From assembly GCF_023238205.1 (NCBI RefSeq), contig NZ_CP096659.1, forward strand, positions 3,179,626 through 3,243,625: a DNA stretch of 64,000 nt. The letters are read 5' to 3'. This DNA is from Halorussus limi (GTDB lineage Archaea > Halobacteriota > Halobacteria > Halobacteriales > Haladaptataceae). Shown piece by piece: positions 16,413-62,701 of this stretch. The position numbers were made by a program, and so were the translations under genes. Below the pieces are notes generated by a model, which had not been told where the DNA came from, made no database searches, and saw nothing but the letters and a program-made list of their open reading frames with translations. Each line of letters begins with the position of its first letter. Positions within the stretch are counted from its first letter, which is position 1.

Positions 16413-17843
16413 TTACCGAGCGCGCTCGACGAGTCGGCGGAGGTCGAGGTGGCCCGCGCCGTGGTACGCCTCGCCGCCGGGCGCGTCGCGGGCGGTCTCT
16501 CGAATCAGATTCTCGACTTCTGCGGCGCTGGCGTCCGGGCGGAGCGAGCGCACGAGCGCGACTGCGCCCGTGACCTGCGGGGCCGCCATGCTCGTTCCGG
16601 CTTTCCAGCCGTAACCGGGTTCGGTCTCGCCGTTCTCGTTCGTCTCGTAGACGCTGGAGAACACGAGGTCGTAGTACCAGCCCTCGACGCCGTCCGCGTA
16701 GGCGTCGAGGTCGTAGTTCCCGCCGCCGGCGCTCACGTCCACGGCCTCGCCGTAGTTGGTGTACTTCGCGGGTTGGGACGTCGATTTCTCCAACTTCTTC
16801 AGCCCCTTGTCCTCGCGGCTCGGTTTCTCGTCGTCCCAGAGGTAGCCGATGGGACCGGTCGCCGCGACGCCGAAGATTCCCTCGACTTCGGTCGGGAGGC
16901 TGAGGACGCCCTTGCGGTCCATGTCGAGCGCGTCGTTGCCCGCGGAGTTGACGATGACCATGTCCTGCTCGCGGGCGAAGTTTGCGGCGCGCCGGTACAG
17001 TTCCTTCACGTCGAGCAGGAACGGGTACTTCTCGGGGTAGACGTACGGGACCGGATAGCCGAGACTGATGTTCGCGGCGTCACAGCCCTTACTCGCCGCG
17101 TCCACGAGCGCCGCGATGACGTCGCCGCTCGCGCCACTCACGCCGGAGAAGACCCGATGGGAGAGGACTTCGGTGTCGGGCGCAGTGCCGAGAATGCCGT
17201 CCCCGGCGGCGTTCGTCCCCGCGACGATGCCCGCGACGTGGGTGCCGTGGTCGCCCGCGCCGTTCGGTCGGAAGTCGTACGGGTCGGTGGTGAAGTTCTC
17301 CGACAGTTCCTCGTTGACGACGCCTTCGAGGTCCGGGTGGTCGTAGACTCCGCTGTCGATGACCGCGACGCGGGTCCCCTCGCCGGTCGTCGTGTCTTGG
17401 ACCGTCCGGCCGTCGCCGGGGTTCTCGGTCAGGTCGCCGACGCGTTGGGCGCGTTTGTCCCACTGGAGTTCCGTGTTGGTGGGAGCGCCACTGTCCCACG
17501 CCGGACCCTTGCTTCCGGGGCCCTTCGCCGAGTGCTCCTTGACGGGACCGCCTTCGGGCGTCGCGTCGTGCTGGTAGACCGCGAGGTCCGCGACCGTCGA
17601 GGCCGAACCGGGCACCGCGCCGGGGTCGCCGCGCGCCGCCAGCACGTCGATTTCGGAGATGTCGTGGATGATTTCGACTTCGTCCGGAACCTCGCTACGC
17701 GACACCTCGCGCAGGTCCACGAGGAATCGGCGGTCCGGTCCGCTCGCGCCACCGTCGGCGCTCGCCGCACCCGTCAACAGCGCGGCACTGCCGACCGCTC
17801 CGCCAGCCGCTTTGAGAAACGTCCGTCTGCTATGGTCTGACAT
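16413..17843 (-). CDS. Tat-exported subtilisin-like serine protease (S8), stand-alone
   Basis: This 476-residue protein has a twin-arginine signal (SDHSRRTFLKAAG, hydrophobic stretch to about residue 29), a short propeptide-like region, and an S8 catalytic domain. The catalytic set is intact: Asp163 in VAVIDSG, His199 in GDHGTHVAG, oxyanion Asn303 in NSAGND and Ser418 in AGTSMAAP. It is only distantly similar to the tandem protease cluster at 54-59.5 kb: it has a longer insert between Asn and Ser and no C-terminal domain. It is probably secreted. A strong AT-rich TATA region lies at 17870-17890, about 34 nt upstream. Confidence 0.9.
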   Translation of the reverse strand: MSDHSRRTFLKAAGGAVGSAALLTGAASADGGASGPDRRFLVDLREVSRSEVPDEVEIIHDISEIDVLAARGDPGAVPGSASTVADLAVYQHDATPEGGPVKEHSAKGPGSKGPAWDSGAPTNTELQWDKRAQRVGDLTENPGDGRTVQDTTTGEGTRVAVIDSGVYDHPDLEGVVNEELSENFTTDPYDFRPNGAGDHGTHVAGIVAGTNAAGDGILGTAPDTEVLSHRVFSGVSGASGDVIAALVDAASKGCDAANISLGYPVPYVYPEKYPFLLDVKELYRRAANFAREQDMVIVNSAGNDALDMDRKGVLSLPTEVEGIFGVAATGPIGYLWDDEKPSREDKGLKKLEKSTSQPAKYTNYGEAVDVSAGGGNYDLDAYADGVEGWYYDLVFSSVYETNENGETEPGYGWKAGTSMAAPQVTGAVALVRSLRPDASAAEVENLIRETARDAPGGEAYHGAGHLDLRRLVERAR

Positions 17844-53023: not shown

Positions 53024-53090
53024 CGGAACGCGCCGAAATTCGATTCAGAACGCGCCGAACCCCGGACTCAGAACGCGCCGAGACTCGATT
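53024..53090. repeat. 22-23-bp tandem repeat spanning the end of the DUF2797-like gene
   Basis: Three head-to-tail copies of about 22 bp share the core agaacgcgccga (the first copy has ggaacgcgccga). The rightmost copy contains the last codons and TGA of the minus-strand gene, and the others lie just downstream of it. On the minus strand they end TTCTGA, TTCTGA and TTCCGA, so the stop codon is itself repeated once. Confidence 0.75.
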
Positions 53091-53880
53091 GAAGCTGTCG
53101 CAGACTCTCCTCCTCGGTGACCTCGTAGCCGACTAAATCCCGCAAATCGACCGCGTAGGTCGTGCCGCCGCGGGCCAGCACCAGCACCCGGCCCTGCACG
53201 CCGACGACTTCGCCGGTCGCCAGCGTCTCCGCGACGGGTCGGGTCGAGAGGTCGAGGCCGTAGTCGAAGTCGAACCGCTCGACGGGGTCGAACTCGGCGA
53301 GGGCGTCGTGCCACGCCGCGGCGTCCACGTCGCGGTGGAGCCCCGAAATCTTGTCGGGGACCCGCACTCGGTCGGTGAACTCCTCGGCCAACTGGGACTC
53401 GATTTCGCGGGCGACCCGGCCGTTCTCGACCGTCCGGAGGTGGGCCGCGCGGTCCGCGCCCTGTTCTCGCAGGCGCGTGCGGAGTCGCCACTCTCTGGTC
53501 ACGCCGACCTTGAACGTCGCGGGCGCGAACGCGGCGAGGTAGATGGCGTGGTCGTCGTAGCAGTCCATCTCGTCCTTCAGACAGGTGCCGGTACATCGTG
53601 CGCAGACCCACGTGCTGGTGTGCTGGTCGCAGTAGGGCGCGCCCTCGTTTGCGCACTCGTAGTGGGTCGGGCCGTCGAGTGCGCCCGCGCACCGGCGCTC
53701 GCCGAGCGAATAGCCGAGCGTCCGGCCGGGTTCGAGTCGCTCGCGACGCACCGCTCCGTCGTCCGCGACGACCAGCGCCCCGCGTACACGCTCGTCGTTT
53801 CCGCTCCCGTCGCTCTCGTCGCTTCCGTCCTCGCCGCTCGCACCGCCCTCGCGCTCCGTCTCGTACCCGACGATTTGCAC
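53068..53880 (-). CDS. DUF2797 family protein
   Basis: This 270-residue protein has an acidic N-terminal about 30 residues. A Cys cluster then follows in RRCAGAL, ECANEGAPYCDQH, WVCARCTGTCLKDEMDCYDDH, likely zinc-binding. A GIY-YIG-like stretch comes next, IYLAAFAPATFKVGVTREWRLRTRL. These are the hallmarks of the DUF2797 family, of unknown function. A 22-bp tandem repeat includes its stop codon. Confidence 0.8.
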   Translation of the reverse strand: MQIVGYETEREGGASGEDGSDESDGSGNDERVRGALVVADDGAVRRERLEPGRTLGYSLGERRCAGALDGPTHYECANEGAPYCDQHTSTWVCARCTGTCLKDEMDCYDDHAIYLAAFAPATFKVGVTREWRLRTRLREQGADRAAHLRTVENGRVAREIESQLAEEFTDRVRVPDKISGLHRDVDAAAWHDALAEFDPVERFDFDYGLDLSTRPVAETLATGEVVGVQGRVLVLARGGTTYAVDLRDLVGYEVTEEESLRQLQSSLGAF

Positions 53881-54034: not shown

Positions 54035-55231
54035 ATGATACGAAATGATAATGGTGTGTCGAGGCGTAACGTTCTGAAAGGCGTCGGTGCGTCCGTGGCG
54101 ACCGCGGGCGTGGGAAGCGGTCTGGCGGCGGCCAAGCCAGACGACACGGTCGAGGTCAACGTCGGGTTCGCGTCCGAGCGCGGTCGTCAGGCGGCGCTCA
54201 GTCAGGCCGAGGAGACGGTACGGAAGTTCGACTCCATCGACGTGGTCACGCTCCGCCTGCCCAAACAAGCCGCGACGGCGCTGGAGAAGAATCCGAACAT
54301 CCGGTACGTCGAGGAGAACGGCACGATGCAGGCGCTCGCCCAGACCCTGCCGTGGGGCGTCGACCGCGTGGACGCGGAGGTCGCGCACGCCAACGGCGAG
54401 ACGGGGTCGGGCGCGGACATCGCCATCGTGGACACGGGCATCGACGACGACCACCCCGACCTGCAGGGCAACCTCGGGACCGGCAAGGCCTTCGTCTCGT
54501 GTGGGAACGGCGGCTACTTCGGAAACTGCGGGTTCTCGGGCAACGACAACTCGTGTAACGAACCGTGGTCCGACGACAACGACCACGGGACCCACTGCGC
54601 GGGCATCGCCAACGCGGTGAACAACAGTCAGGGCGTCCGCGGCGTCTCCACCGAGGCGACGCTCCACGCGGTCAAGGTTCTGGACTGCTCGGGGAGCGGT
54701 TCGTTCTCGGACATCGCGGCGGGAATCGAGTACGTCGCGAATCAGGGCTGGGACGTGGCCAGCATGAGCCTCGGCGGCAGTTCGGGGTCGTCGGCGCTCA
54801 AGGACGCGGTTCAGTACGCGCAGGGGCAGGGCGTCCTGCTCGTCGCCGCGGCCGGGAACTCGGGTTCCTGTACCGACTGCGTGGGCTATCCCGCGGCCTA
54901 CTCCGAAGTCGTCGCGGTCAGTTCGACCAACAAGGACGACAACCTGTCGAGTTTCTCCTCGCAGGGTCCGGAGGTCGAAATCGCCGCGCCCGGCACCGAC
55001 ATCTACTCGACGGTTCCCAGCGGGTACGCCACCTTCTCGGGCACCTCGATGGCGTGTCCACACGTCGCGGGCGCTGGCGGTCAACTGATGGCCAACGGCG
55101 CGACCAACGGCGACGCCCGGAGCCAACTCAAGTCCACCGCCGAGGACGTCGGTCTGTCCAGCAACGAATCGGGGTCGGGTCTGCTCGACGTGGCCGCCGC
55201 GCTCGGTCTGGACTCCAGCGACAGCACGTAA
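54035..55231 (+). CDS. Tat-exported proteinase-K-like subtilase, copy 1 of 4
   Basis: This 398-residue protein has a twin-arginine signal (SRRNVLKGVG, to about 33), an inhibitor-I9-like propeptide (about 40-103, ending YVEENGTM) and an S8 catalytic domain. Active residues are Asp133 (IVDTGID), His184 (DHGTHCAG), oxyanion Asn275 (AAAGNSG) and Ser338 (SGTSMACP). HGTHC and CxxC (CTDC) resemble proteinase K-like extracellular enzymes. It has no C-terminal domain. The TATA-like TTCATTAGG lies about 29 nt upstream of the ATG. Two stretches are nearly identical to copy 2 (the Tat signal and residues 240-266), suggesting recent duplication or gene conversion. Confidence 0.93.
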   Translation: MIRNDNGVSRRNVLKGVGASVATAGVGSGLAAAKPDDTVEVNVGFASERGRQAALSQAEETVRKFDSIDVVTLRLPKQAATALEKNPNIRYVEENGTMQALAQTLPWGVDRVDAEVAHANGETGSGADIAIVDTGIDDDHPDLQGNLGTGKAFVSCGNGGYFGNCGFSGNDNSCNEPWSDDNDHGTHCAGIANAVNNSQGVRGVSTEATLHAVKVLDCSGSGSFSDIAAGIEYVANQGWDVASMSLGGSSGSSALKDAVQYAQGQGVLLVAAAGNSGSCTDCVGYPAAYSEVVAVSSTNKDDNLSSFSSQGPEVEIAAPGTDIYSTVPSGYATFSGTSMACPHVAGAGGQLMANGATNGDARSQLKSTAEDVGLSSNESGSGLLDVAAALGLDSSDST

Positions 55232-55391
55232 GCGATTCGCCGACCGCCGCTTTTTCGATAGTTCCGGGGTGGCGTCGCTTAGCGTCGCGTTTTCCTCCCG
55301 CGCATAACACTTGAGAACATCCCACTCAGACATTATTTCTATATTTTCACGAAAAACATTTATTGAGGGTTGGTGCCATTATTTCCATGCC

Positions 55392-56585
55392 ATGAGAGAT
55401 AACGACAATGGTGTGTCGAGGCGTAACGTTCTGAAAGTGGCCGGTGCGTCCGTCGCGACGGCCGCGGCGGGCGGTCTGGCGGCGGCCAAGCCGGACGATA
55501 CGGTCGAAATCAACGTCGGGTTCGCGTCCGGGAAAGGCCGACAGAAGGCGCTCGCCGCGGCCGACGAGGTCGTCCGGAAGTTCGACTCCATCGACGTGGT
55601 GACCATCCGCGCGGCCAAGCGGGCCGCGACGGCGCTGGAGAAGAACCCGAACGTCCGGTACGTCGAGGAGAACGGCACGATGGAAGCGCTCGCCCAGACC
55701 CTGCCGTGGGGACAGGACCGCGTCGACTCCGACGTGGTCCACGCGAACGGCGACCTCGGTGCCGGTGCCGACGTGGCCATCCTCGACACGGGCATCGACG
55801 ACGACCACCCCGACCTGACCGACCACCTCGGCAAGGGGAAGGCGTTCGTCACCTGCGACACGAGCGGTGGCTGTCGGTACGGCGCGAAACCCGCGGACAA
55901 CACGTGCAACTACTCGTGGACCGACGACAACAACCACGGGACGCACTGCGCGGGCATCGCGGCGGGCGACGACAACTCGCAGGGCGTCGTCGGTGCCGCG
56001 CCCGACGCGACGCTCCACGCGGTCAAGGTGCTGGACAAGTGCGGGAGCGGTACGTACTCGGACATCGCGGCGGGCGTCGAGTACGTCGCCGACCAAGGCT
56101 GGGACGTGGCCAGCATGAGCCTCGGCGGCAGTTCGGGGTCGTCGGCACTCAAGGACGCGGTCCAGTACGCGCAGGGGCAGGGCGTCTTCGTCGTCGCGGC
56201 CGCGGGTAACTCGGGTCCGTGTTCGGACTGCGTGAGCTACCCCGCCGCCTACTCCGAGGTCATGGCCGTGAGTTCGACCGCGAGCGACGACTCCCTCTCG
56301 GACTTCTCCAGCACGGGACCGGAAGTCGAGATAGCCGCGCCCGGCACCGACATCTACTCGTCGGTCGCGAACGGCGGCTACGACACCTACTCCGGTACCT
56401 CGATGGCGACGCCGCACGTCGCCGGCGTCGCGGGCCAACTCGCCTCGAACGGGACGACCGGCAGCGACATCCGGTCGACGCTGAAGAACTCGGCCGAGGA
56501 CATCGGTCTGGCCAGCAACGAATCGGGGTCGGGTCTGCTCGACGCCGCGGCCGCACTCGGCTACGACTCGTCGGACGACACGTAG
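55392..56585 (+). CDS. Tat-exported proteinase-K-like subtilase, copy 2 of 4
   Basis: This 397-residue paralogue has the same layout: Tat signal (SRRNVLKVAG), I9-like propeptide, S8 domain. Catalytic Asp132, His182, oxyanion Asn273 and Ser337 are intact. The ATG at 55392 is used, because the longer frame from 55311 would put the Tat motif too deep. A TATA-like CATTTATT is about 31 nt upstream. Its Cys-rich loop (residues 155-172, CDTSGGCRYGAKPADNTC) differs in spacing from copy 1. Confidence 0.93.
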   Translation: MRDNDNGVSRRNVLKVAGASVATAAAGGLAAAKPDDTVEINVGFASGKGRQKALAAADEVVRKFDSIDVVTIRAAKRAATALEKNPNVRYVEENGTMEALAQTLPWGQDRVDSDVVHANGDLGAGADVAILDTGIDDDHPDLTDHLGKGKAFVTCDTSGGCRYGAKPADNTCNYSWTDDNNHGTHCAGIAAGDDNSQGVVGAAPDATLHAVKVLDKCGSGTYSDIAAGVEYVADQGWDVASMSLGGSSGSSALKDAVQYAQGQGVFVVAAAGNSGPCSDCVSYPAAYSEVMAVSSTASDDSLSDFSSTGPEVEIAAPGTDIYSSVANGGYDTYSGTSMATPHVAGVAGQLASNGTTGSDIRSTLKNSAEDIGLASNESGSGLLDAAAALGYDSSDDT

Positions 56586-56866
56586 GCCGACCTTCGACCC
56601 GACTTCTTTTCGGAGCGCGAACGGCGTCGTCGTGCCCGACGGTTCGACCCTCGCCAGCGACGCGTCGCCGGCATCTCGGCGGCAGTGAGCGTACCGATGT
56701 GACCGACCGCGGTCGTCCTGTGACGCTCGGTCGATTTGCTCACCGAGTAAAACTCGCAAATGAGCATTCAGGCATCGAATCGCCTCGGAGCCGGGCTCAG
56801 ATTTTATTTCATTGTCAGATACTAGAATAAAAGTTTATTTCAGTAGTCTTCTATTGTTAGAATGCG

Positions 56867-57997
56867 ATGCTTGGTAACGAAAACGGCGTTTCCCGACGTA
56901 ACGTACTGAAAACTGCGGGCGGTTCCCTCGCCGCGATGGGCGCGACGGGCCTCGCGGCGGCCAAACCCGACGACACGGTCGAGGTCAACGTCGGGTTCGA
57001 CTCCGACAAGGGCCGCCAGATGGCGCTCTCCTCCGCGGACAACGTGGTCCGGAAGTTCGACTCCCTAGACGTCGTGACCGTTCAGGTCCCGAAGAAGGCC
57101 GCGACGTCGCTCGAAAGGAGCCCCGATATTCGGTACGTCGAGGAGAACGGCACGATGCAGGCGCTCGCCCAGACCCTGCCGTGGGGCGTCAATCGCGTGG
57201 ACGCCGACCGCGCGGCCTCGGGCGGAAGCGGTGCCGACGTGGCCATCATCGACACGGGTATCGACGGCAACCACCCCGACCTCGAAGCGAATCTCGGCGC
57301 AGGTGCCTACGCCGTCGCGTGTAACTCCTCCTCCGCGGAGTGCACCTACGGCTGGGGCGACGACAACGGCCACGGTACCCACTGCGCCGGTATCGCGGGC
57401 GCCGTCGACAACAATCAGGGCGTCGTCGGCGTCGGTGACGCCGTCACGCTCCACGCCGTGAAGGTCCTCAACTCCAACGGCGGTGGCTCCTACTCCGACA
57501 TCGCGGCCGGTATCGAGTACGTCGCCGACCAGGGCTGGGACGTGGGGTCGCTCTCGCTGGGCGGAAGTGCGTCCTCGACGGTCCGCGACGCGGTCCAGTA
57601 CGCCGACAGTCGCGGCGTCACGCTGGTCGCGGCGGCCGGGAACTCGGGTCCGTGTTCGGACTGCGTGGGCTACCCCGCCGCCTACCCCGAGACCATCGCA
57701 GTCAGTTCGACCAACAGGAACGACGACCTGTCGAGTTTCTCCTCGACCGGTCCCGAAGTCGACATCGCCGCGCCCGGTTCCGACATCTACTCGTCGTACG
57801 TCGGCGGCGGCTACAACACGCTCTCGGGCACCTCGATGGCGACCCCGCACGTCGCCGGTGCCGCGGGCATCCTCCGCGCGCAGGGCTACTCCAACTCGCA
57901 GGCCAAGAACCGACTCCTGAACACCGCCGAGAACATCGGTCTGGCCAGCAACGAGTCGGGCGCGGGCCTGCTCGACGTGGAAGCGGCGACTCAGTAA
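56867..57997 (+). CDS. Tat-exported proteinase-K-like subtilase, copy 3 of 4
   Basis: This 376-residue paralogue has the Tat signal SRRNVLKTAGG, I9-like propeptide and S8 domain with Asp129, His169, oxyanion Asn259 and Ser323. It is about 20 residues shorter, mostly because the loop before the catalytic His is only 22 residues and the C-terminal tail is trimmed. The Cys-rich loop has two Cys (ACNSSSAECTYG). An AT-rich TATA region (AATAAAAGTTTATTTC, 56825-56842) lies about 29 nt upstream. It has diverged further from copies 1 and 2 than they have from each other. Confidence 0.92.
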   Translation: MLGNENGVSRRNVLKTAGGSLAAMGATGLAAAKPDDTVEVNVGFDSDKGRQMALSSADNVVRKFDSLDVVTVQVPKKAATSLERSPDIRYVEENGTMQALAQTLPWGVNRVDADRAASGGSGADVAIIDTGIDGNHPDLEANLGAGAYAVACNSSSAECTYGWGDDNGHGTHCAGIAGAVDNNQGVVGVGDAVTLHAVKVLNSNGGGSYSDIAAGIEYVADQGWDVGSLSLGGSASSTVRDAVQYADSRGVTLVAAAGNSGPCSDCVGYPAAYPETIAVSSTNRNDDLSSFSSTGPEVDIAAPGSDIYSSYVGGGYNTLSGTSMATPHVAGAAGILRAQGYSNSQAKNRLLNTAENIGLASNESGAGLLDVEAATQ

Positions 57998-58350
57998 GCC
58001 GCCGCTCTCGGCACGCCGGCCCGGTAACTGCGGCGTCGTAGCAACCCCGCGACTCCCGCTCGAACGCGGTTCGTCATCCAACCGCGATTCACCCGACTCG
58101 TCACCCACCGCGACTCGTCACTCACCCAAGTCGTCACCCACCTGCGACACGTCGCCATCCGCGGGTGACGAAACGCGAGTCCCCCGCGTTTCCACCCCGT
58201 TCGCAGTCGGGCGTGGCCCCGGCAGGGCCGCGCCCCGGCGAGTCCGCCTGCCTTTCCGTTCGACAGTGAGACGAGTGCCGCATCACCCGCCATTTTGTTT
58301 CGTTAATTCTAGATGAAAATTTTTGTTCCGATAGGACGTATAGTCGAACG
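57998..58350. other. 353-bp intergenic region between protease copies 3 and 4
   Basis: It holds a 17-bp tandem repeat (58096-58146) and a C-rich stretch to 58290, then an AT-rich block (58296-58330) with the TATA-like AAAATTTTT about 30 nt before the copy 4 start. No frame is supported. Confidence 0.6.
58096..58146. repeat. 17-bp tandem repeat, three units
   Basis: Three consecutive 17-bp units (58096-58112, 58113-58129, 58130-58146) share the core TCGTCACCCACC or TCGTCACTCACC; degenerate partial copies flank them from 58069. The region lies in the spacer between protease copies 3 and 4. Confidence 0.7.
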
Positions 58351-59487
58351 ATGTTCGACGAACAGTCCATATCGCGACGCACCGTCCTCAAGACGACCGG
58401 CGGGTCGCTCCTCGCCGTCGGTGCGGGCGGTCTCGCCGGGGCCGACCCCGGCGAGACGGTCCGGGTCAACGTCGGGTTCGCGTCCGAGCGCGGCCGGTCG
58501 GCCGCCCTCGACGCCGCCGACGACGTGGTCCGGGAGTTCACCTTCGACGCCGCGACGCTCGACCTACCCAAGCGCGCGGCCACCGCACTCTCAGAGCGCG
58601 CCGGGGTGCGCTACGTCGAGCGCGACGGCACCGCTCGCGCGCTCTCGACGACGTGGGGTTACGACCGAATCGACGCCGACGTGGCGAACGCCAGCGGCTA
58701 CACCGGCGACGGGGCCGACGTGGCCGTCATCGACACGGGACTGCCCTGCGACGACCCCTGCCTGCCGAACGTCGGCGCGGGCGAGGCGTTCGTGGACTGC
58801 TCCGGCGGGTGTTGCGCGCCGTGGGACGACGACAACGGTCACGGCACGCAGGTCGGGGCCGTCATCGGCGCGAGCGAGGCCTGCGAGTGTACGACCGGTG
58901 TCGCTCCCGACGCGACCCTCCACGCGGTCAAGGTGCTGGACGGCTACGGCGCGGGGTCGTACTCCGACATCGCGGCGGGCGTCGAGTACGTCGCGAATCA
59001 GGGGTGGGACGTCGCCAACATCAGCCTCGGCGGTAGTTCCGGGTCGTCGGTCCTCCGGGATGCCGTGCAGTACGCGACCGACAACGGCGTCCTCCTCGTC
59101 GGCGCGGCGGGCGGGGGCGGTCCGTGTTCGAGTTGCGTGGGCTACCCCGCGGCCTACTCGGAGGTGGTCGCGGTCAGCGCGACCAATTCGAACGACGAAC
59201 TCGCCTCCTTCTCCAGCAGGGGGCCGGAAGTCGAACTCGCCGCGCCGGGGTCCGACGTCACCACGGGCGGGAGCGACGGCGGGTGCGCCACCTTCTCGGG
59301 CACGTCGTACGCCACCGCTCACGTCTCGGGCGTCGCCGCGCTCGTGATGGCCGAGGGCTACGCCAACACCGGCGCTCGCACCCGACTCCGGAACACCGCC
59401 GAGGACGTCGGCCTGTCGAGCGACGAGCAGGGGTACGGACTGGTGGATGCCGCGGCCGCGGTCGGACTCGATTCGGGCGACGACTGA
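58351..59487 (+). CDS. Tat-exported subtilase homologue, copy 4 of 4, oxyanion Asn missing
   Basis: This 378-residue paralogue has a Tat signal (SRRTVLKTTGG) and I9-like propeptide. Asp128 (VIDTG), His164 (GHGTQVG) and Ser319 (SGTSYATA) are present. The oxyanion-hole Asn of the AAAGNSG motif is replaced by Gly255 (GAAGGGGP), and the Pro after the Ser block is Ala (YATAH against MATPH). Asn loss usually cuts subtilisin activity drastically, so this copy is probably weak or inactive. The region before the His is shortened and Cys-rich (CSGGCCAPWD). It is the last protease before the inhibitor-like gene. Confidence 0.9.
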   Translation: MFDEQSISRRTVLKTTGGSLLAVGAGGLAGADPGETVRVNVGFASERGRSAALDAADDVVREFTFDAATLDLPKRAATALSERAGVRYVERDGTARALSTTWGYDRIDADVANASGYTGDGADVAVIDTGLPCDDPCLPNVGAGEAFVDCSGGCCAPWDDDNGHGTQVGAVIGASEACECTTGVAPDATLHAVKVLDGYGAGSYSDIAAGVEYVANQGWDVANISLGGSSGSSVLRDAVQYATDNGVLLVGAAGGGGPCSSCVGYPAAYSEVVAVSATNSNDELASFSSRGPEVELAAPGSDVTTGGSDGGCATFSGTSYATAHVSGVAALVMAEGYANTGARTRLRNTAEDVGLSSDEQGYGLVDAAAAVGLDSGDD

Positions 59488-59534
59488 GCGGTCCCCGCGA
59501 AAAGTTTTCAGGCCTCCGACGGCCAGTAGAAAGT

Positions 59535-59867
59535 ATGGCGCTTCAGAGTTCCGTCGACGCGACGGTCGAGTCCGACCGCGTGGTCTTCGAGTACACCGTC
59601 GAGAACGTCGGCGACGCCCCCGAGGAGGTTCAGTTCCGAAGTTCCCTGCTGGCCGACTTCGCGGTCGTGGCGGACGGCGAAGAGGTCTGGCGGGCCAGCG
59701 ACGACCAGATGTTCGCCCAGATGATACAGACCGAGCGCATCGACGCCGACGACGGCGAGACGTTCGCCGAGGCGTGGGACGACCCTGCGCCCGGCGACTA
59801 CACCGTCGTCGCCACCCTGAACGCGACCGGCGACGACGCCGAGGCCCGGACCGACTTCTCGGTGTAA
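59535..59867 (+). CDS. BsuPI-type intracellular proteinase inhibitor homologue
   Basis: This 110-residue protein, with no signal peptide, contains the BsuPI core: VQFRSSLLADFAVVADGEEVWRASDDQMFAQMI and FAEAWDDPAPGDYTVVATL. BsuPI of Bacillus inhibits its intracellular subtilisin. The start ATG at 59535 has an AAAGTTTTC TATA-like box about 31 nt upstream, so it has its own promoter. It lies 47 nt after copy 4 of the protease cluster. A role in holding folded, Tat-bound proteases in check in the cytoplasm is an inference from position and family; inhibition is not shown. Confidence 0.8.
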   Translation: MALQSSVDATVESDRVVFEYTVENVGDAPEEVQFRSSLLADFAVVADGEEVWRASDDQMFAQMIQTERIDADDGETFAEAWDDPAPGDYTVVATLNATGDDAEARTDFSV

Positions 59868-60881: not shown

Positions 60882-61427
60882 ATGCAAGGCGAACCCGAAG
60901 TTGCGGTCCTCCGACTCGGCCACCGGCCGGGCCGCGACGAGCGCATGACGACCCACGTCGGCCTGACCGCGCGGGCGCTGGGGGCCGACCGCGCGATTCT
61001 GGCGGGCGACGCGAGCAAGTCACGGGGTACCGTCGAGGACATCACCGACCGCTTCGGCGGACCGTTCGACGTGGAACTGACCGAAAGCCCGAAGGCGGTC
61101 ATCCGCGACTGGGAGGGGCAGGTCGTCCACCTCACGATGTACGGCGAGCGGGTGCAGGACGTGGAGGCCGAAATCCGCGAGCGTCGCGCGGACGGCGACC
61201 CGATTCTCGCGGTCGTCGGGTCTCAGAAGGTGTCGTTCGACGTGTACGAGGCCGCCGACTGGAACGTCGGCGTGACGAACCAACCGCACTCGGAGGTGGC
61301 CGGACTGGCGGTGTTCTTGGACCGCCTGTTCGAGGGCCGGGAGTTGGACCGCGAGTGGGAGGACGCCGACCAGACCGTGATTCCGAAGGCGACGGGCAAG
61401 AAAGTCGTTCCCGCCGACGAGGAGTGA
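60882..61427 (+). CDS. trm56: tRNA (cytidine(56)-2'-O)-methyltransferase
   Basis: aTrm56 2'-O-methylates C56 of the T-loop in archaeal tRNAs. The 181-residue protein contains VAVLRLGHRPGRDERMTTHVGLTARA, then LTMYGERV, ILAVVGSQKV and VTNQPHSEVAGLAVFLDRL, the SPOUT motifs of the family. It has no added domains. It is a free-standing gene between NAT and the nucleotidase remnant. Confidence 0.93.
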   Translation: MQGEPEVAVLRLGHRPGRDERMTTHVGLTARALGADRAILAGDASKSRGTVEDITDRFGGPFDVELTESPKAVIRDWEGQVVHLTMYGERVQDVEAEIRERRADGDPILAVVGSQKVSFDVYEAADWNVGVTNQPHSEVAGLAVFLDRLFEGRELDREWEDADQTVIPKATGKKVVPADEE

Positions 61428-62164: not shown

Positions 62165-62701
62165 ATGGCTTTTGAGGACTTACTGGAGGACCCAGTAATT
62201 CAGAAATATCTTCACGAATTGGTCGGTCCGAAGGGAATGCCGGTCGCGGCGGCCCCGCCGGACGGCGAAGTCACCGACGAGGAACTCGCCGAGGAGTTGG
62301 ACCTCGAACTCAACGACGTGCGCCGCGCGTTGTTCATCCTCTACGAGAACGACCTCGCCACGTACCGACGACTCCGCGACGAGGACTCGGGGTGGCTGAC
62401 GTACCTCTGGACGTTCCAGTACGAGAACATCCCGGACAACCTCGAAGAGGAGATGCACCGCCTGCTCGAAGCGCTCGACCAGCGCGAGGACTACGAGCGC
62501 CAACACGAGTTCTACCTCTGTGAGGTCTGTTCGATTCGGTTCGAGTTCGGCGAGGCGATGGACTTCGGCTTCGAGTGTCCCGAGTGCGGGTCGCCGCTCG
62601 AATCCATGGAGAACAGTCGGCTCATCGACGCGATGGAGCGGCGAATCGCGGACCTCCGCGAGGAACTCAACGTCGAGAAACTCGAAGAGGCCGAGGCATA
62701 G
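62165..62701 (+). CDS. tfe: Transcription factor E (TFE, TFIIE-alpha homologue)
   Basis: This 178-residue protein has an N-terminal winged helix (about 5-90, DEELAEELDLELNDVRRALFILYENDLA) and a zinc ribbon with CEVCSIRFEF and CPECGSPLE (about 120-145). TFE stabilises the open promoter complex with archaeal RNA polymerase. The next gene starts right after its stop, so the DUF2110 protein is likely co-transcribed, as in other archaea. Confidence 0.95.
   Translation: MAFEDLLEDPVIQKYLHELVGPKGMPVAAAPPDGEVTDEELAEELDLELNDVRRALFILYENDLATYRRLRDEDSGWLTYLWTFQYENIPDNLEEEMHRLLEALDQREDYERQHEFYLCEVCSIRFEFGEAMDFGFECPECGSPLESMENSRLIDAMERRIADLREELNVEKLEEAEA

Follow-up and report, generated by a model that had tools for sequence, protein, structure and literature searches.

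A signal-less BsuPI-family gene recurrently follows Tat-signal subtilase genes in haloarchaea

Four Tat-signal subtilase genes lie in tandem in Halorussus limi. Within the window, which is the whole 64,000-nucleotide stretch of DNA that we analyzed, four intact S8 genes run along the plus strand (54035-59487, +). Copy 1 (54035..55231, +) encodes 398 amino acids with a Tat motif (SRRNVLK), a PF22148 prodomain and the residues D133/H184/N275/S338. The same architecture is found in copy 2 (55392..56585, +; 397 amino acids) and copy 3 (56867..57997, +; 376 amino acids), which are 75% and 69% identical to copy 1, respectively. Copy 4 (58351..59487, +; 378 amino acids; 60% identity with copy 1) carries Gly in place of the oxyanion Asn and falls within a conserved group of oxyanion-less paralogues. 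All four match PF00082 in a search with Pfam profiles (E 2e-44 to 2e-58), which, together with the coordinates, confirms the original prediction of four paralogous plus-strand S8 genes in tandem.

The prodomain of copies 1-3 is PF22148 (Fervidolysin_NPro-like), at or above the cut-off, and copy 4 has no prodomain match in the Pfam profile search. The Pfam Inhibitor_I9 model matches none of the four subtilase prodomains; thus, the I9-like propeptides first assigned to these genes give way to PF22148 in copies 1-3 and to no match in copy 4. A twin-arginine signal had also been assigned to each copy. The motif SRRxVLK is visible by eye in all four; the Tat profiles leave copies 1-3 marginally below the cut-off and do not match copy 4 at E values up to 0.1. 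The catalytic Asp, His and Ser and the oxyanion Asn are complete in copies 1-3 (at the positions given above, in copy 1 numbering). The C-termini of the four copies lie 9 to 25 residues past the S8 match, and the halolysin-type C-terminal extension is absent. An AT-rich element can be seen by eye near -30 of each subtilase gene. Elsewhere in the window, a further subtilase with a Tat motif is encoded on the minus strand (about 16473-17384); it belongs to a different subfamily.

A BsuPI/IPI homologue lies 47 nt downstream of copy 4 (59535..59867, +). The encoded protein has 110 amino acids, no signal peptide and the wedge-loop motif W52-R53...M59-F60-A61-Q62. Its match to PF12690 (E 6.5e-24; 84.3 bits against a cut-off of 22.9) spans model positions 2-99 of 101, and this match and the start codon at the domain edge bear out the expectation of a signal-less BsuPI-like gene just after the array. 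It matches B. subtilis IPI (3isy) in phmmer (E 3.7e-7). An AlphaFold model based on 37 aligned homologues has an Ig-like fold with an extended wedge loop and a mean pLDDT of 93.8, and its top PDB match is again 3isy (TM 0.94, E 2.2e-9).

The wedge loop is conserved among the homologues. Among 120 BsuPI homologues, N24, W52 and G87 are conserved at 100% (rounded), F60 and W81 at 97%, R53 at 95% and Q62 at 94%. The M59-F60-[A/T]61-Q62 segment aligns to M-F-T-Q of IPI, and docking places IPI residues 62-68 in the active site of Isp1 (PMC3901451). None of the 120 homologues has a signal peptide; 119 have a start codon at the edge of the domain and one is without a clear start. From its sequence, the window homologue is predicted to be cytoplasmic. 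BsuPI is carried by 164 of 293 haloarchaeal genomes, almost always as a single copy. Homologues are also held by Gemmatimonadota contigs (L246-L280), where a subtilase was not found within the fetched flanks.

BsuPI has a promoter-like element of its own. The BRE/TATA-like element gaaaagttttca (59499..59510, +) occupies -36 to -25 of the BsuPI start and is a putative leaderless promoter. In the 60 nt preceding 120 BsuPI starts, A is overrepresented at -34/-33 and at -10, and T at -28 to -26; no comparable enrichment lies further upstream. Leaderless haloarchaeal promoters have this spacing. The enrichment pools BsuPI loci with and without subtilases, which suggests that BsuPI need not depend on subtilase promoters. 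Operon status is thus doubtful despite the 47-nt gap, and a shared operon was rejected, in its simple form, as the whole explanation of the arrangement, since the element is positionally conserved whether or not subtilases are present.

Copy 4 represents a group of paralogues that lack the oxyanion Asn. Its oxyanion hole reads AAGGGG in place of AAGNSG (Asn to Gly), and Asp, His and Ser are retained. Seventeen copies share Gly for Asn with an intact D-H-S triad, and they are confined to the window's genus and Haladaptatus (58351-59487 of the window and members at L048, L050-L052, L055-L058, L061, L063-L065, L068-L070 and L072). A single origin of these copies is neither rejected (AU p 0.48) nor demonstrated. 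One member (L048_loc1) groups elsewhere in the tree, possibly through gene conversion. The dN/dS values of the group (0.09-0.27) are similar to those of catalytic paralogues (0.11-0.28) and indicate purifying selection, and the oxyanion-less genes are thus being maintained. Subtilisins without the oxyanion Asn are strongly impaired. Judged by its residues, copy 4 probably has little or no proteolytic activity, and speaking of four proteases overstates the catalytic set. Given this impairment, the maintained oxyanion-less copies may plausibly act in regulation or binding.

The adjacency of BsuPI and Tat-type subtilases recurs across haloarchaea. Subtilases were sought within about 8 kb of BsuPI in 119 fetched haloarchaeal loci. 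They are present in 45 of these, always on the BsuPI strand, and lie directly upstream of BsuPI in 44 of the 45 (gap 9-839 nt, median 63 nt), with one to six copies per linked locus. The sole linked locus with its subtilases downstream of BsuPI (L080, from genome G253) has three of them. Linked loci cover 18 of the 49 BsuPI genera and seven of the eight families sampled. With the window included, linked loci make up 23/27 in family f1, 10/18 in f3, 5/44 in f6 (Natrialbaceae), 3/14 in f2, 2/3 in f5, 2/5 in f10, 1/7 in f4 and 0/2 in f11. Adjacency has changed at least 18 times on the BsuPI tree, which is poorly resolved. A contig scan of named records, which overlaps the 119-locus set in part, shows the array followed by BsuPI in Haladaptatus, Halostella, Halegenticoccus, Halobium, Halapricum, Haloglomus, Haloprofundus, Haloferax marinum, a Halobacterium sp. 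and others. The same order is absent from the Natrialbaceae and Gemmatimonadota loci returned by that scan.

This pairing is not due to chance. The original prediction held that BsuPI should not occur equally often away from subtilase genes, and the loci speak on both sides: BsuPI is not beside a subtilase in 74 of 119 loci, mainly those of Natrialbaceae, yet a simple random-placement model expects about 0.08 linked loci, which puts the observed adjacency at about 500 times chance.

BsuPI and halolysin-like subtilases also occur together at the level of whole genomes. We counted as halolysin-like any subtilase matching P0001 at E <= 1e-40 in 293 haloarchaeal genomes. Both genes are found in 141 genomes, BsuPI only in 23, the subtilase only in 30 and neither in 99, giving an odds ratio (OR) of 20 in which kinship is not fully corrected. 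The control hydrolase GH18 has an OR of 1.8 with BsuPI (p 0.08), and the proposed co-occurrence of BsuPI with Tat-signal S8 genes is supported. Counted by genus, the corresponding numbers are 45, 4, 7 and 22 (OR 35, kinship again not fully corrected). BsuPI is present in 76 of the 77 genomes with at least three halolysin-like subtilases and in all 44 with at least four. Among the 23 genomes that have BsuPI and no P0001-like subtilase, 17 retain some S8 gene; in the remaining six, no S8 match was detected. In genomes lacking a P0001-like subtilase, the BsuPI wedge loop shows about the same conservation. Loop decay in halolysin-less genomes was uninformative as a functional test, the loop being largely conserved there too.

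The pair occupies a syntenic slot whose gene order is conserved across families: DUF2797, zero to six subtilases, BsuPI, then Trm56 and TFE. In the window, the left edge of the slot is a divergent conserved neighbor (53068..53880, -), which we take to be DUF2797-like by recognition of its sequence. The conserved markers downstream (60882..61427, +, and 62165..62701, +) are presumably Trm56-like and TFE-like genes, named in the same way. The DUF2797-like gene is the divergent neighbor of BsuPI in most haloarchaea, with subtilases or with none. In three loci (L053, L054 and L125), the slot subtilase is broken across overlapping frames, which suggests a frameshift or sequencing error.

This conserved order raises the main alternative to a protective role, namely that DUF2797, one or more subtilases, BsuPI, Trm56 and TFE already stood side by side in the haloarchaeal ancestor, and that the arrangement was inherited without present function while BsuPI binds some other partner. 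The fetched stretch contains DUF2797 in 99 of 119 loci (35/45 linked and 64/74 unlinked). Because its linkage to BsuPI persists in 64 subtilase-less loci, regional synteny explains part of the linkage between subtilases and BsuPI. The order of the markers across families and the 23 BsuPI genomes without a close halolysin, six of them without an S8 match, also favor inheritance. Inherited order does not, however, predict the genome-wide co-occurrence, in which the OR is far above that of GH18. Furthermore, the subtilase-BsuPI pair is intact in seven genomes from four families where DUF2797 is far off (G233, G239, G222, G270, G041, G015 and G057), and the slot is occupied by subtilases of several subclades. 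We therefore regard inherited order alone as unlikely. In two genomes (G118 and G270), a subtilase is kept at DUF2797 and away from BsuPI. On the subtilase tree, slot copies are mixed with non-slot copies, so that a single clade of slot subtilases is rejected; the mixing is compatible with repeated recruitment and equally with losses from an ancestral slot of several copies.

The host genome points to Tat subtilases as the putative targets of BsuPI. Of its 12 S8 genes, ten encode RR motifs and the other two hydrophobic N-termini; not one of them is a signal-less, plain cytoplasmic subtilase. Without a signal-less subtilisin, the Tat subtilases before export are the obvious targets. Tat exports folded proteins, and a Tat-exported, self-activating protease is therefore a hazard to its maker. 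Our preferred reading, which we hold to be moderately likely, is that BsuPI is a cytoplasmic inhibitor guarding against Tat-exported halolysin-type subtilases. These would fold in the cytoplasm ahead of Tat export and could self-process there. BsuPI, made from its own promoter and remaining in the cytoplasm, would insert the conserved wedge loop (W52-R53...M59-F60-[A/T]61-Q62) into the active site of any subtilase maturing ahead of export and so block it. We infer that BsuPI inhibits the window subtilases and that this protection keeps the genes together.

Support for this reading comes from two sources. Our own analysis establishes the gene order, the absence of a signal, the family, the predicted fold and the conservation of the loop, as well as recurrent adjacency, co-occurrence and the fact that the host genome offers no other cytoplasmic subtilase as a target. 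The literature contributes the Tat export of SptA, the toxicity of retained halolysin and the inhibition of subtilisins by IPI. According to PMC6085418, citing Du et al. 2015, when the Tat signal of SptA is mutated the protein matures within Haloferax volcanii and the cells die; an inhibitor goes unmentioned in this halolysin paper. The putative protease-inhibitor module first proposed for the locus is supported in part: adjacency, co-occurrence, the lack of a signal-less subtilase, BsuPI homologues without signal peptides, the conserved loop and the published toxicity speak for it; the doubtful operon and a copy 4 that is probably weak or inactive qualify it.

The same genomic evidence would be compatible with an export chaperone. 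BsuPI would then bind folded Tat subtilase precursors and keep them soluble or export-competent, and a binding-only role for IPI has been raised before: PMC3901451 asks whether IPI merely binds the peptidase, its structural neighbors being mediators of protein-protein contacts. However, B. subtilis IPI inhibits Isp1 with a Ki near 1e-9 M (PMC3901451), and the conserved surface of BsuPI is the loop that docking places in the active site; we consider a chaperone improbable. That BsuPI instead controls a signal-less intracellular subtilisin as in Bacillus, with the adjoining Tat array incidental, is very improbable given that all 12 host S8 genes have RR motifs or hydrophobic N-termini, even though B. 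subtilis IPI inhibits Isp1 and two haloarchaea have predicted intracellular subtilisins (PMC3901451).

As a candidate guard, BsuPI gives concrete form to the question of how haloarchaea may avoid self-digestion, and its recurring pairing with subtilases suggests an answer. The data are relevant, too, to whether BsuPI/IPI truly inhibits subtilases, a question left when the IPI family (former I22) was removed from MEROPS because an inhibitor and a competing substrate could not be distinguished (PMC3901451). The adjacency runs counter to the 2013 statement that the IPI gene was near a subtilisin gene in no complete genome then available (PMC3901451). In a search of literature drawn mostly from outside the subscription journals, BsuPI was tied by name to haloarchaea only in PMC3901451, and no paper was found connecting any inhibitor to halolysins. 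The component families are known; what is new, as far as the literature was searched, is that they are associated, how widely they are, and how this bears on the role of BsuPI.

Several known systems are comparable. In the staphostatin-staphopain and SpeB-Spi systems, a secreted protease is encoded with a cytoplasmic inhibitor gene just downstream, and the inhibitor is proposed to guard the producer. These systems involve cysteine proteases and inhibitors of unrelated folds, whereas the window pairs Tat-exported folded serine proteases with a putative Ig-like inhibitor. The B. subtilis IPI/Isp1 system shares with the window the inhibitor family (PF12690), the fold, the MF[A/T]Q loop and the signal-less cytoplasmic form; it differs in that its target is an intracellular subtilisin encoded apart from the inhibitor (PMC3901451), while the neighbors in the window are Tat-exported subtilases. 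The halolysins SptA (Natrinema J7-2) and Nep (Natrialba magadii) resemble the window subtilases, whose Tat signals are predicted from the motif, as Tat-signal haloarchaeal S8 proteases with a prodomain. SptA carries a C-terminal extension (PMC3158780), and the four window proteins (376-398 amino acids) are without one.

A bolder proposal joins BsuPI and copy 4. BsuPI could be a general haloarchaeal safety inhibitor that makes the Tat export of self-activating subtilases tolerable, and the adjoining oxyanion-less paralogue could serve specifically to regulate it, for instance as a decoy that binds BsuPI and so adjusts the amount of free inhibitor; we put this forward as a long shot. The protective reading of BsuPI has a further possible counterpart in NSI, which PMC3403918 cites as an intracellular inhibitor of subtilisin purified from Natrialba magadii and whose gene is not identified in that paper. 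Like NSI, BsuPI would be a haloarchaeal intracellular subtilisin inhibitor, putatively so in its case, and the BsuPI family is a candidate for the NSI gene.
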